Assembly: GCF_003854935.1 (NCBI RefSeq)
Contig: NZ_CP033969.1
Coordinates: 1,488,001 to 1,552,000, forward strand
Direction: 5' to 3'
Source of the DNA: Cupriavidus pauculus
GTDB taxonomy: Bacteria; Pseudomonadota; Gammaproteobacteria; Burkholderiales; Burkholderiaceae
DNA length: 64,000 nt
Below the pieces are notes generated by a model that was given only the letters and a program-made list of their open reading frames with translations, ran no database searches and was not told where the DNA came from. The translations under genes were made by a program, and so were the position numbers. The stretch's first letter is position 1, and every line of letters starts with the position of its first letter. This document shows, one piece after another, positions 35,279 through 37,783 of this stretch.

Positions 35279-36466
35279 TCAGCCCAGCTTCTTCAGCAGC
35301 TCGCGCAGCATGCCGATCATCTGGTCGATTTCCTCGCGCGTCACGTTCAGGGCCGGCATGAAGCGCAGCAGGTTCGGGCGCGGGGCGTTCAGCAGCAGGC
35401 CGGTCGGGTTCATCTCGCGGGCTTCTTCCACGATCTGCGGGCCGATGTCCTTGCCCAGCACCAGCGCGCGCAGCAGGCCCTCGCCGCGCTCGCCGCCCAG
35501 GCCGAACTCGGCCGACAGCGCCAGCAGCTGCTCGCGCAGGTAGGCGCCCTTGGCCTTTACGTCGTCCAGGAAGCCCGGCGCGGTCAACTGGGCGATCACC
35601 GAGCTTCCGACGGCCGTCATCAGCGGGTTGCCGTTGTAGGTGCCGCCCTGGTCGCCGGCCTCGAAGCTGGCCACGTCGGCCTTGCAGAGCAGGGCCGACA
35701 GCGGCACGCCACCGCCAATGCCCTTGCCCAGCGTCATGATGTCCGGCTCCACGCCCGACAGCTCGTACGCGAACAGCGTACCGCAGCGGCCACAGCCGGT
35801 CTGCACTTCATCGACGATGAACAGCAGCTTGTGCTTGTCGGCCAGCGCGCGCAGGCCCTGCATGAACTCGCGGCTGGCCGGGATCACGCCGCCTTCGCCC
35901 TGCACCGGCTCCAGCATGATGCCGACGGTCTTGTCGGTGATCAGCTTTTCCACCGATGCCAGGTTGTTCAGCTCGGCCTTCGGAAAGCCCGGCACCTGCG
36001 GCGCGAAGATGGTGTCCCAGCCGGCCTTGCCCGACGCGCTCATCGTCGCCAGCGTGCGGCCGTGGAAACTGTGGTCCATCGTGATGATCTCGAACGCGCC
36101 GTTCTTGTGCTTGCGGCCCCATTTGCGCGCCAGCTTGATCGCGCCCTCGTTGGCCTCGGCGCCGCTGTTGGCAAAGAAGACCTTGTCGAAGCAGCTGTTG
36201 TCGGTCAGCTGGCGGGCCAGCTTCAGCATCGGCTCGTTGTAGAACGCCGGGCTGGGGTTCAGCAGCTTGCGCGCCTGCTGCTCCAGCGCCTGGATCATGC
36301 CTTCGTTCGAGTGGCCCAGCGCGTTGACGGCCCAGCCTTGCACGAAGTCCAGGTATCGCTTGCCGTTATGGTCCGTCAGCCACGATCCCTTGCCTTCCGT
36401 GAAGACCAGTTCGGGGCGGTTGGTGATGTACATCAGCGATTGGACGGGATACTCGGCAAATGCCAT
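35279..36466 (-). CDS. argD: Acetylornithine aminotransferase-type class III aminotransferase
   Basis: PLP enzyme of 395 aa, in family terms N-acetylornithine transaminase of arginine synthesis, possibly also acting on N-succinyl-diaminopimelate. It has [20 protein letters not shown] (98-117), the cofactor Asp219 in FIVDEVQTG and the Schiff-base Lys248 in [14 protein letters not shown] precedes the ATG at 36464-36466. Other arg genes are not adjacent. Its leader is unusual: a promoter with an internal palindrome, a 21-residue Arg-rich ORF and an intrinsic terminator precede the gene, suggesting attenuation. Assignment to ArgD rather than another ornithine-type transaminase is likely but not certain. 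Confidence 0.9.
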
Positions 36467-36504
36467 GGCGGACTCCTGGGGTCGGCATGAAACGATGGAC
36501 GGAC

Positions 36505-36538
36505 AAAAGCAAAAAGCCACGGGGGATGCCCGTGGCTT
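36505..36538 (-). terminator. Intrinsic terminator in the argD leader (putative attenuator)
   Basis: On the minus strand a 10-bp perfect stem AAGCCACGGG / CCCGTGGCTT (36538-36529 and 36523-36514) runs directly into TTTGCTTTTG. It lies between the argD promoter/leader ORF and the argD start, so read-through must be controlled for argD to be expressed. It also ends transcripts of the upstream reductase gene. Confidence 0.8.
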
Positions 36539-36540
36539 GT

Positions 36541-36568
36541 TGACCTGAACAGACGCTGTCGACGGTCA
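36541..36568 (-). promoter_or_regulatory. Imperfect hairpin at the end of the argD leader ORF
   Basis: TGACC and GGTCA (outer 5 bp) and ACAG/CTGT (inner 4 bp) can pair. The outer arm contains the stop codon of the leader ORF, so a ribosome stopped there would open it. It could act as an anti-antiterminator; this is inference. Confidence 0.35.
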
Positions 36569-36631
36569 GCCGCGCGGCACCCCGGAGGGGAGCAACGTAC
36601 GAGCGCGGCGTCGGAGGATGGCGGTGTTCAT
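36566..36631 (-). CDS. Putative Arg-rich leader peptide upstream of argD (21 codons)
   Basis: A 21-residue ORF starting MNTAILRRRAR with five Arg codons (CGA, CGC, CGC, CGT, CGC), four of them within codons 7-11, and a stop at 36566-36568. The ATG lies 7 nt after the -10 box of a near-consensus promoter, so it would be leaderless. It ends about 28 nt before an intrinsic terminator that precedes argD. Position and composition are those of an attenuator leader peptide that senses arginyl-tRNA. Not a database-supported gene; the call rests on architecture alone. Confidence 0.5.
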   Translation of the reverse strand: MNTAILRRRARTLLPSGVPRG

Positions 36632-36638
36632 GGCGGCC

Positions 36639-36667
36639 AATATAAGACGCATGCGTCCGGGTGTCAA
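36639..36667 (-). promoter_or_regulatory. Strong promoter of argD leader
   Basis: On the minus strand TTGACA (36662-36667, perfect), a 17-nt spacer and TATATT (36639-36644, 5 of 6) form the best promoter in this window. The start point would be at or one base before the leader ATG (36631). Confidence 0.75.
36646..36657. promoter_or_regulatory. 12-bp perfect palindrome inside the argD promoter spacer
   Basis: GACGCATGCGTC is a perfect palindrome centred between the -35 and -10 boxes. A dimeric repressor bound here would block RNA polymerase. Its identity is unknown; it does not look like the E. coli ARG box. Confidence 0.45.
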
Positions 36668-36727
36668 AGCGAAATTTGGCAGACCCGGGTGGCATTGTTG
36701 TGTCGGCGGAACGGCTTGGCCCGCGCG

Positions 36728-37783
36728 TCAGGCGGCCCCGGCCGGGTGCAGGTCGGCCTCGGACGTGAACGAATCGGCAAAGAACGCGTCCTCGTGCAGC
36801 CGGCACTGGGCCGTGAAATCGGTCCGCGCGGCGTTGACCATGACCGGGGCGCCGCAGGCGTAGACCTCGTGGCCGGACAGGTCCGGATGGTCGGCGATCA
36901 CGGCCTGGTGGACAAAGCCCGTGCGGCCGGTCCAGTTGTCTTCCGGCCGGGCGTCGGACACCACGGGCACGTAGCGGAAGTTCGGCAGGTCGCGCGCCCA
37001 CTGCTCGCACAGCGCGTGCATGTACAGGTCCTGCGGGCGGCGGCCGCCCCAGTACAGCGTCATCGGGCGCGTGATGCCGGTGTAGGCGGCGTGCTCGACG
37101 ATGGCCTTGATCGGCGCGAAGCCGGTGCCCGACGCCAGCAGGATGATCGGGCTGTCCGATTCCTCGCGCAGGAAGAAGCTGCCCAGCGGGCCTTCGAAGC
37201 GAAGGATGTCGCGCTCCTTCATCGCCGGCATGCCTTCCTTGGCGCCGAACACGTAGTCGGTGAACGCGCCGCCGGGCATGTGGCGGATGTGCAGTTCGAT
37301 CGGGCCTTCCTCGTGCGGCGGCGTGGCGATCGAGTAGCTGCGGCGCTTGCCGTCGCGCAGCAGGAATTCCACGTACTGGCCGGCCAGGAACTGCATGCGC
37401 TCGGTGGCGGGCAACTGGAGCTTGATCGCGATCACGTCATCGGCCAGCCGTTCCATGGTACTGACGCGGCACGGGATCTTCTTGATGGGGATGTCGCCGG
37501 CGCCATGCACCTCGCGGCATTCGATCGTGATGTCGGACGTGGCGTTGGCGCAGCAGAACAGCGCGCGGCCCTCGGTCTTTTCCTGCGCCGTCAGTGCCGA
37601 GGCAGCGTGGTCGCCCTGCTGGATCGTGCCTTCGACGACACGGCCCTTGCAGGACCCGCAGGCGCCGTTCTTGCAGCCGTAGGGCAGGCCGATGCTATGG
37701 CGCAGCGCGGCGCCCAGGATGGTTTCGTCGGCGGCCACTTCGAACTTGTGGCCACTCGGCATGACGGTAACTTGATAAGCCAT
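36728..37783 (-). CDS. 2Fe-2S/FAD oxidoreductase (CDP-6-deoxy-delta-3,4-glucoseen reductase-like)
   Basis: A 351-residue electron-transfer protein. The N-terminal plant-type ferredoxin domain has the cluster cysteines 37, 42, 45 and 77 (YGCKNGACGSCKG, LFCCAN). An FNR-type module follows: RSYSIATPP binds FAD and LLASGTGFAPIKAIVEHA binds NAD(P)H. Such proteins feed electrons to oxygenases or dehydratases; no oxygenase gene is adjacent, so the partner is unknown. In Burkholderiales it is usually annotated as the glucoseen reductase AscD/RfbI type although no sugar cluster is present here. Its start codon is 10 bp from that of the divergent 37794 gene. Confidence 0.88.
   Translation of the reverse strand: MAYQVTVMPSGHKFEVAADETILGAALRHSIGLPYGCKNGACGSCKGRVVEGTIQQGDHAASALTAQEKTEGRALFCCANATSDITIECREVHGAGDIPIKKIPCRVSTMERLADDVIAIKLQLPATERMQFLAGQYVEFLLRDGKRRSYSIATPPHEEGPIELHIRHMPGGAFTDYVFGAKEGMPAMKERDILRFEGPLGSFFLREESDSPIILLASGTGFAPIKAIVEHAAYTGITRPMTLYWGGRRPQDLYMHALCEQWARDLPNFRYVPVVSDARPEDNWTGRTGFVHQAVIADHPDLSGHEVYACGAPVMVNAARTDFTAQCRLHEDAFFADSFTSEADLHPAGAA

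Follow-up and report, generated by a model that had tools for sequence, protein, structure and literature searches.

A putative ribosome-mediated arginine attenuator upstream of argD in Cupriavidus pauculus and other Burkholderiales

Introduction

How is the arginine pathway controlled in bacteria in which no repressor of the ArgR type is found? The question is raised by argD, the gene for acetylornithine transaminase, in a 64,000-nucleotide (nt) stretch of Cupriavidus pauculus (order Burkholderiales; contig NZ_CP033969.1, positions 1,488,001–1,552,000; hereafter the window), which belongs to a genome of 6.18 Mb. The domain Arg_repressor (PF01316) was found in 0 of 61 genomes of the family, including the window's own, versus 9 of 14 controls, and a regulon survey describes ArgR as absent, within the set of genomes that it covered, from all classes but the gammaproteobacteria (PMC5343134). 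Because an ArgR-type repressor was not found, control by a leader peptide would fill this gap for argD. An initial annotation of the window, made from its letters alone, had proposed such control, in the form of ribosome-mediated attenuation at a run of Arg codons ahead of argD. Here we report that the argD leader is very probably a ribosome-mediated transcription attenuator for arginine. This reading draws on the parts found in the sequence, their conservation, covariation of the terminator, a computed switch and a published, homologous short RNA of Burkholderia cenocepacia; from these we infer a start at +1, translation of the leader open reading frame (ORF), ribosome stalling and a response to arginine.

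Architecture of the argD leader

All parts of the leader lie on the minus strand of the window. A −35 hexamer, TTGACA (36662..36667), is separated by a 17-nt spacer from the −10 hexamer TATATT (36639..36644), and this pair is the sole promoter-like site between 36400 and 36900 (shuffle mean 0.1). It is followed by a probably leaderless ORF of 21 codons, MNTAILRRRARTLLPSGVPRG and a stop (36566..36631, ATG at 36631), with five Arg residues at codons 7, 8, 9, 11 and 20. Codons 7–11 (CGA CGC CGC GCT CGT; 36599..36613) form the Arg run that is kept across genera and contain strand 1, CGCCGCGC (36603..36610), which in the minimum-free-energy fold can pair with strand 2, GCCGCGCGGCT (36568..36578). 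Strand 2, located by the position of the best duplex with strand 3, is the 5′ half of the antiterminator. Strand 3, AAGCCACGGG (36529..36538), serves in the covariation analyses both as the 3′ half of the antiterminator and as the 5′ arm of an intrinsic terminator, AAGCCACGGG-CATCC-CCCGTGGCTT (36514..36538), a hairpin of 10 base pairs with a 5-nt loop that is seen in the sequence and in the covariation of 31 sequences. The U-rich tract TTTGCTTTTG (36504..36513) after the stem is the expected 3′ end of the short RNA. The hairpin is the sole terminator-like site in 36400–36900, with a shuffle mean of 0.5, such a site not being rare, and the fold of the leader RNA has a z-score of −2.91.

From the end of the U tract to the ATG of argD there are 37 nt, with no promoter-like site among them, so that the case the initial annotation had named against itself, an argD start downstream of the hairpin, was not seen. 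The ribosome site AGGAG (36473..36477) precedes argD (35279..36466, ATG at 36466), whose product of 395 amino acids scores 783.8 bits against the equivalog NF002985 (cut-off 568) and also matches the Aminotran_3 domain. The gene upstream of the leader, a ferredoxin-type reductase, lies on the same strand as argD. Promoter, Arg-rich ORF, terminator and ribosome site all agree base for base with the initial annotation, and the GCGGCT stretch that it had taken as able to pair with the terminator arm can indeed pair with AGCC. A detector for Arg leaders (ATG 3–8 nt after TA...T, ORF of 7–45 codons, at least three Arg in five codons) gave two matches on both strands of the 64-kb window; a terminator is present only at the argD leader.

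In the minimum-free-energy fold of the window's leader, UGAACA of the start-codon region (36630–36625) pairs with UGUUCA just before the terminator. Matches of this kind seem, by eye, to be present in other genera, and such pairing could close the released leader RNA.

Proposed mechanism

On these parts, transcription would begin at or beside the ATG of the leaderless 21-codon ORF. When Arg-tRNA is plentiful, the ribosome would pass the Arg run, reach the stop codon and cover strand 2, whereupon strand 3 would pair with strand 4 (the 3′ arm of the hairpin), the terminator would form and only an RNA of about 120–130 nt would be made. When Arg-tRNA is short, the ribosome would stall at the Arg codons and leave strand 2 free to capture strand 3, and RNA polymerase would continue into argD. 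Without translation, strand 1, which holds the Arg codons, would pair with strand 2, giving termination by default.

Conservation of the leader

We assembled 138 regions upstream of argD, 99 of them (including that of the window) chosen by similarity to the leader or by a match to the Rfam family RF02884, and 39 by argD alone. A leader detector matched 114 of the 138, that is, 99 of 99 leader-selected and 15 of 39 argD-only regions; as it required 'RR', the RR in its matches is there by construction. Two earlier promoter patterns were not used, the first of which matched 3 loci while the second missed the TTTACA type. Four leaders added by eye (loci L128, L129, L131 and L134) bring the argD-only regions with a leader to 19 of 39, and a terminator follows in 117 of the resulting 118 leaders, L134 being the one without. 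In a further sample, the best 80 matches listed by ArgD protein alignment alone, some of which are also in the 138-region set, 76 genomes have an ORF whose ATG is 6–8 nt past the −10 and in which two or more Arg codons are adjacent (only two in L220); those without are Robbsia andropogonis, a metagenome-assembled genome (MAG) of Burkholderiales and two Polynucleobacter MAGs. Leaders also occur in other families of the order, here numbered f3, f8, f15, f24, f30 (without a terminator), f35, f5 (one of three regions) and f11 (L250).

What the leaders have in common is their start context, Arg run and terminator; the remainder of the peptide varies, as does its length, 15–36 codons in 118 leaders. 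Examples, each closed by a stop codon, are MNRFLSALRRRRSPLRPDAAGSSRTRA in Burkholderia, MNRIQSELRRRRSPLP in Paraburkholderia, MNQALHLRRRRTLLPPGSRAAVC in group g48, probably Ralstonia as judged from 85% ArgD identity, and MNMIRTLLRRRSPLPLPGKPCA in f8; similar leaders occur in Herminiimonas and Collimonas. The conservation expected by the initial annotation in Cupriavidus, Ralstonia and Burkholderia thus held for the Arg run and the terminator; it did not hold for the position of the stop codon, with ORFs of 15–36 codons between genera, and covariation of the antiterminator is weak. Its other counter-case, an ORF and Arg codons that are not conserved beside a terminator kept only as the end of the upstream gene, was not seen, as both the ORF and the Arg codons are conserved. 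Attenuation at Arg codons, as first proposed, gains support from the conserved Arg run, ATG-to-(−10) spacing, terminator and antiterminator strand at a fixed distance. In the Cupriavidus ORF the variable columns are spread evenly over the codon positions (8, 10, 8 and 9, 8, 10), from which selection seems to act on the Arg codons and not on the peptide; as there is no third-position bias, the evidence for coding comes from the Arg run, the in-frame length changes and the start context.

The choice of control codons is narrow. Among 49 distinct contexts, the five codons from the first RR onwards contain 175 Arg codons, comprising CGC (85), CGA (50) and CGT (40), with CGG, AGA and AGG at 0 of 175; of the Arg codons outside the run in the same leaders, 16 of 103 are CGG, AGA or AGG. 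The run opens with CGA in 48 of the 49 contexts, a codon that makes up 1 of 77 Arg codons in four genes of the window. In most bacteria a single Arg tRNA with inosine decodes CGC, CGT and CGA, and a run confined to these codons fits a sensor of the charging of that one tRNA. Alternatively, the opening CGA may have an RNA-level reason for its A.

A covariance model of the leader, R1, was run against 399 genomes from the order. The 171 of these 399 that it matched were not taken as a measure of prevalence, because many partial matches were plain terminators or belonged to an unrelated type of leader ahead of EamA-family transporters. In the window's own genome R1 gave one full-length match (E = 4e-36), the next full-length one having E = 0.32 and partial ones E = 5e-8 and weaker. 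The unrelated type, found in families f15, f25, f43 and f50 (L247, L249, L251, L252, L254, L255, L256, L258 and L262, at about 1500–1700 in match orientation), has an ATG just past a −10 that opens a mini-ORF of about 30 codons lacking an Arg run (for example, MNSPSLTLVRVRPAARLQMACRSSFRGRESQR), and a GGCCAC-type terminator; the EamA-family gene was assigned by Pfam at L247 only, and by eye at L251, L252 and L254–L256. Separately, in a genome of f37 (L257, about 1540), a leader MNSLNRNIRRIERAIIAVPRRFVRSRVTT with the terminator GGCCACGG precedes a transglutaminase-like gene (PF01841) and not argD.

Start of the transcript

An ATG 7 nt past the −10 falls at about +1, which makes the argD leader transcript probably leaderless. 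The same distance recurs in 93 of the 114 detected leaders, the others having 6 nt (11), 8 nt (9) or 4 nt (1). Published data on B. cenocepacia J2315 bear on where transcription starts. In eight Burkholderia loci, 142–150 nt separate the leader ATG from the end of the terminator stem and 149–155 nt from the end of the first T run; the RNA listed as RIT34, nc5U30 or Bc_KC_sr7 is 147 nt long by its coordinates (PMC10987360). Furthermore, in a methylation study BCAL2701 (ArgD) is one of the genes reported to have a methylated GTWWAC motif at most 60 bases upstream of the start site, the change in argD expression reported there for the methylase mutant not being significant (PMC7364216). Burkholderia leaders (for example, L033) contain GTTTAC, a GTWWAC motif, in the −35 region, and in five of seven Burkholderia loci the GTWWAC at −38 from the leader ATG is the only one upstream of argD, the other two having a second one further up. 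The RNA length and the position of the methylated motif, neither of them exact to the base, favour a start of argD transcription at the leader over one past the terminator. Leaderless transcripts are described as numerous in the J2315 transcription start-site paper, the main text of which has 0 occurrences of arginine, argD, attenuat or nc5U (PMC4603805).

Terminator, antiterminator and computed switch

Covariation was assessed in an alignment of 31 diverse leaders against 500 shuffles. For the terminator, 98.6% of 277 cells are paired, with nine double-change cells and a covariation score of 0.144, each of which was reached by 0 of 500 shuffles. For the antiterminator, formed by strand 2 (GCCGCnCGGCU) with strand 3 (AGCCAcGG), 78.9% of 246 cells are paired, with four double changes, as compared with 25–46% paired in versions slid along the alignment. 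Both of its strands are altered in some distant loci, for example to UGCGGCC/GGCCGCA in f24 and CCGUGGC/GCCACGG in f5. The antiterminator is conserved; its covariation is weak.

Without use of the alignment, 29 of 37 loci have the start of their best strand-3 duplex 22–30 nt beyond the second Arg codon (15% in mononucleotide shuffles). Native strand pairs exceed the mean of swapped pairs in 29 of 37 loci with strand 3 given and in 24 of 37 with strand 2 given, and the native sum was reached by 0 of 10,000 permutations. When the RNA is folded up to the end of strand 3, strand 3 pairs with the strand-2 window at a mean of 0.74 when a ribosome is placed at the Arg codons and of 0.10 without a ribosome; with the ribosome at the stop codon the mean is 0.02, a value largely set by the assumed footprint. 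A switch, defined as pairing above 0.5 when stalled and below 0.3 when free, was seen in 32 of 37 loci, as against a mean of 4.0 and a maximum of 10 loci when 40 dinucleotide-shuffled sets were folded; as the 37 loci are related, the position, permutation and switch figures overstate their independence. The leader thus has a cluster of cognate codons before a biosynthetic gene and an intrinsic terminator between the ORF and argD, and it is by computation only that the mutually exclusive antiterminator freed by stalling is found (32 of the 37 loci).

Homology to the Rfam family RF02884

In a lax Rfam scan, the family RF02884 (BcKCsr7, 'Burkholderia sRNA 7') aligned with the window at 36645–36510, from end to end of the model, with 24.8 bits, short of the 59 bits required by the gathering score. 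Scores of 23.7–30.7 bits were obtained for five of six Cupriavidus loci, the sixth (L013) not being listed. Across 201 genomes of the family, 120 were matched at E ≤0.001 and 81 above the cut-off; in a search of the genus Burkholderia, 65 of 65 genomes were matched above the cut-off. Both searches gave 0 of 14 in the controls.

The search of the 201 genomes yielded 125 places, 117 of which, including 81 of 81 above the cut-off, are directly upstream of argD. We fetched 70 of the 125 (30 automatically and 40 chosen for spread), and argD was downstream at 70 of 70, the match at L101 covering only residues 132–394. At the remaining places, 27 above the cut-off and eight weaker ones adjoin the coordinates of argD, and 12 more were fetched and argD verified.

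The B. cenocepacia RNA is listed under four names, Bc_KC_sr7, nc5U30, RIT34 and IG1_2967543, at 2,967,641–2,967,787 on the plus strand of J2315 chromosome 1, and is described as expressed in biofilm, down in Caenorhabditis elegans infection and up with organic peroxide (PMC10987360). The distance from 6S RNA to the leader is 31,856 in print for J2315, 31,918 in genome G441 and 25,634 in G423; 6S RNA was not found in the stretch of G212 used for this comparison. We take the RF02884 'sRNA' to be, most plausibly, the terminated leader of argD.

Alternative explanations

The Rfam entry itself suggests another reading, in which the RNA is a free-standing gene for a trans-acting small RNA (sRNA) and its place before argD is incidental. 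RF02884 is typed there as 'Gene; sRNA', and RIT34 has been detected as an RNA that changes under infection and organic peroxide, as listed in the compilation cited above (PMC10987360). We reject a separate sRNA gene as the main explanation, and consider it very unlikely, because argD directly follows the RF02884 places in the proportions just given, all of those above the cut-off included. Moreover, the window has no further promoter-like site between the hairpin and argD, the Arg-run frame is present in 99 of 99 leader-selected regions, and the parts that are conserved are the parts of an attenuator. Little probability also falls to an arrest peptide, whose nascent chain would bind arginine or ornithine in the ribosome, with the stalled ribosome controlling the terminator; SpeFL and TnaC are precedents for sensing of this kind. 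Such a peptide would agree with the C-terminal VPRG, which is well kept within Cupriavidus; against it, the peptide beyond the Arg run changes throughout from genus to genus, in length as in endings (PLP, SSRTRA, AAVC and VPRG before the stop), and the constants across genera are the Arg codons and their distance to strand 2, which are the requirements of codon stalling. We rejected the arrest peptide on the ground that the genera share only the Arg run and show no conserved peptide sequence beyond the cognate residues. Least probable of all, to the point of being negligible, is an ordinary upstream terminator and an argD promoter, with a chance ORF and no regulation. It would suit those argD genes of the order that have no such leader, yet the promoter precedes the terminator, the ORF and its Arg run recur in many genera, and shuffles fail to reproduce the switch.

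Other results weigh against an attenuator. No leader was recognisable in 20 of the 39 argD-only regions; an Arg leader is missing in g36 (3 of 3), g39 (3 of 3), g40 (2 of 2), g47 and two g44 genomes, and further in f4 (4 of 4), f8 (1 of 3), f5 (2 of 3), f21 and f39. Eight weak RF02884 places (29.7–33.3 bits, cut-off 59) lie away from argD. In the terminator, the count of further pair types was reached by 500 of 500 shuffles, and for the antiterminator the native values were reached by 37 (paired percentage), 60 (covariation score) and 19 (double-change cells) of 500. Duplex energies at single loci are mostly no better than those of shuffles; since GC-rich shuffles mostly equal them, they are uninformative, and the position and switch tests were used instead. 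The even spread of variable columns in Cupriavidus, the RR built into the detector and the relatedness of the 37 loci, given above, belong on the same side.

Beyond attenuation in cis, the terminated product might have a dual function, a possibility that we regard as speculative and rather unlikely. It would then serve both as a leaderless mini-mRNA encoding an Arg-rich peptide and as a stable, trans-acting sRNA (BcKCsr7/RIT34) that broadcasts the arginine state, as do rnTrpL and peTrpL in Sinorhizobium, with control codons tuned to the single inosine-carrying Arg tRNA and opening with the rare CGA.

Relation to known systems

Leader-peptide attenuators act at the his, leu, thr, ilv and phe operons. 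These and the trp attenuator resemble the argD leader in having a short ORF of cognate codons and an intrinsic terminator before a biosynthetic gene, a mutually exclusive antiterminator and a default pairing of strands 1 and 2; the argD leader differs in its amino acid, its gene, its probable leaderless start and its spread across Burkholderiales. Leader-peptide attenuation of trp is described together with trpL of Sinorhizobium meliloti, in which, as is probable for the argD leader, the 5′ end of the attenuator RNA is the ATG of the leader ORF, and the terminated RNA, rnTrpL, is a small RNA with activity of its own; trpL differs in having Trp codons, preceding trpE, residing in an alphaproteobacterium and having a trans activity that is reported as demonstrated (PMC7298713). 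The carAB leader of Pseudomonas aeruginosa shares with argD an arginine-pathway gene, a leader peptide and proposed attenuation, but there attenuation is described as tied to pyrimidines and arginine control as transcriptional, at a different gene; for P. syringae DC3000 carAB the same account reports no start codon from which a leader peptide could be made (PMC4997734). In Salmonella orf34-speF, consecutive Arg codons of a leader ORF sense arginine, as proposed for the argD leader; the gene is a decarboxylase and control is described as involving mRNA stability, Rho and access to the ribosome site, with no intrinsic terminator before a biosynthetic gene (PMC6386406). Closest is RF02884 itself, a homologous RNA at the same site before argD with a full-length alignment, which differs in being annotated as an sRNA gene and in the score of the window, below the gathering score.

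Elsewhere in the arginine pathway of the window's genome, carA has no clear leader. Upstream of argF (L265, about 1355–1483, roughly 4 kb before the window), a terminator-like hairpin AAGGCGGCTC...GAGYCGCCTTCTTTGTTTT ends directly at the argF ATG. In Cupriavidus this hairpin is kept together with an Arg-rich frame, MIFAITLRKRRERRLRDTLQS, which among 24 further loci examined is confined to Cupriavidus; nine g48 loci have a similar hairpin and no frame. We do not claim an argF attenuator, because the ATG of the frame overlaps TATGAT, a probable −10, and the nine g48 loci preserve no more than the hairpin.

In the open-licence literature, outside which most subscription papers lie, we found no account of an argD attenuator for arginine, nor one that reads RF02884 in this way, and the main text of a genome-wide survey of premature terminators contains neither 'arginine' nor 'argD' (PMC2965389). 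The novelty that the initial annotation had supposed holds within the literature searched, except that Rfam already lists the RNA itself as an sRNA. Leader-peptide attenuation is itself a known kind of mechanism. What appears to be new is its amino acid, its target gene, the probably leaderless start and how widely it occurs in the order, and a catalogued RNA is re-identified.

The leader offers a testable answer to how the arginine pathway may be controlled where an ArgR-type repressor is not found, and would add arginine to the amino acids sensed through leader peptides with intrinsic terminators. If this is true, the 'small RNA' family RF02884 would become a cis-regulatory leader, which would alter the reading of its expression changes under stress.

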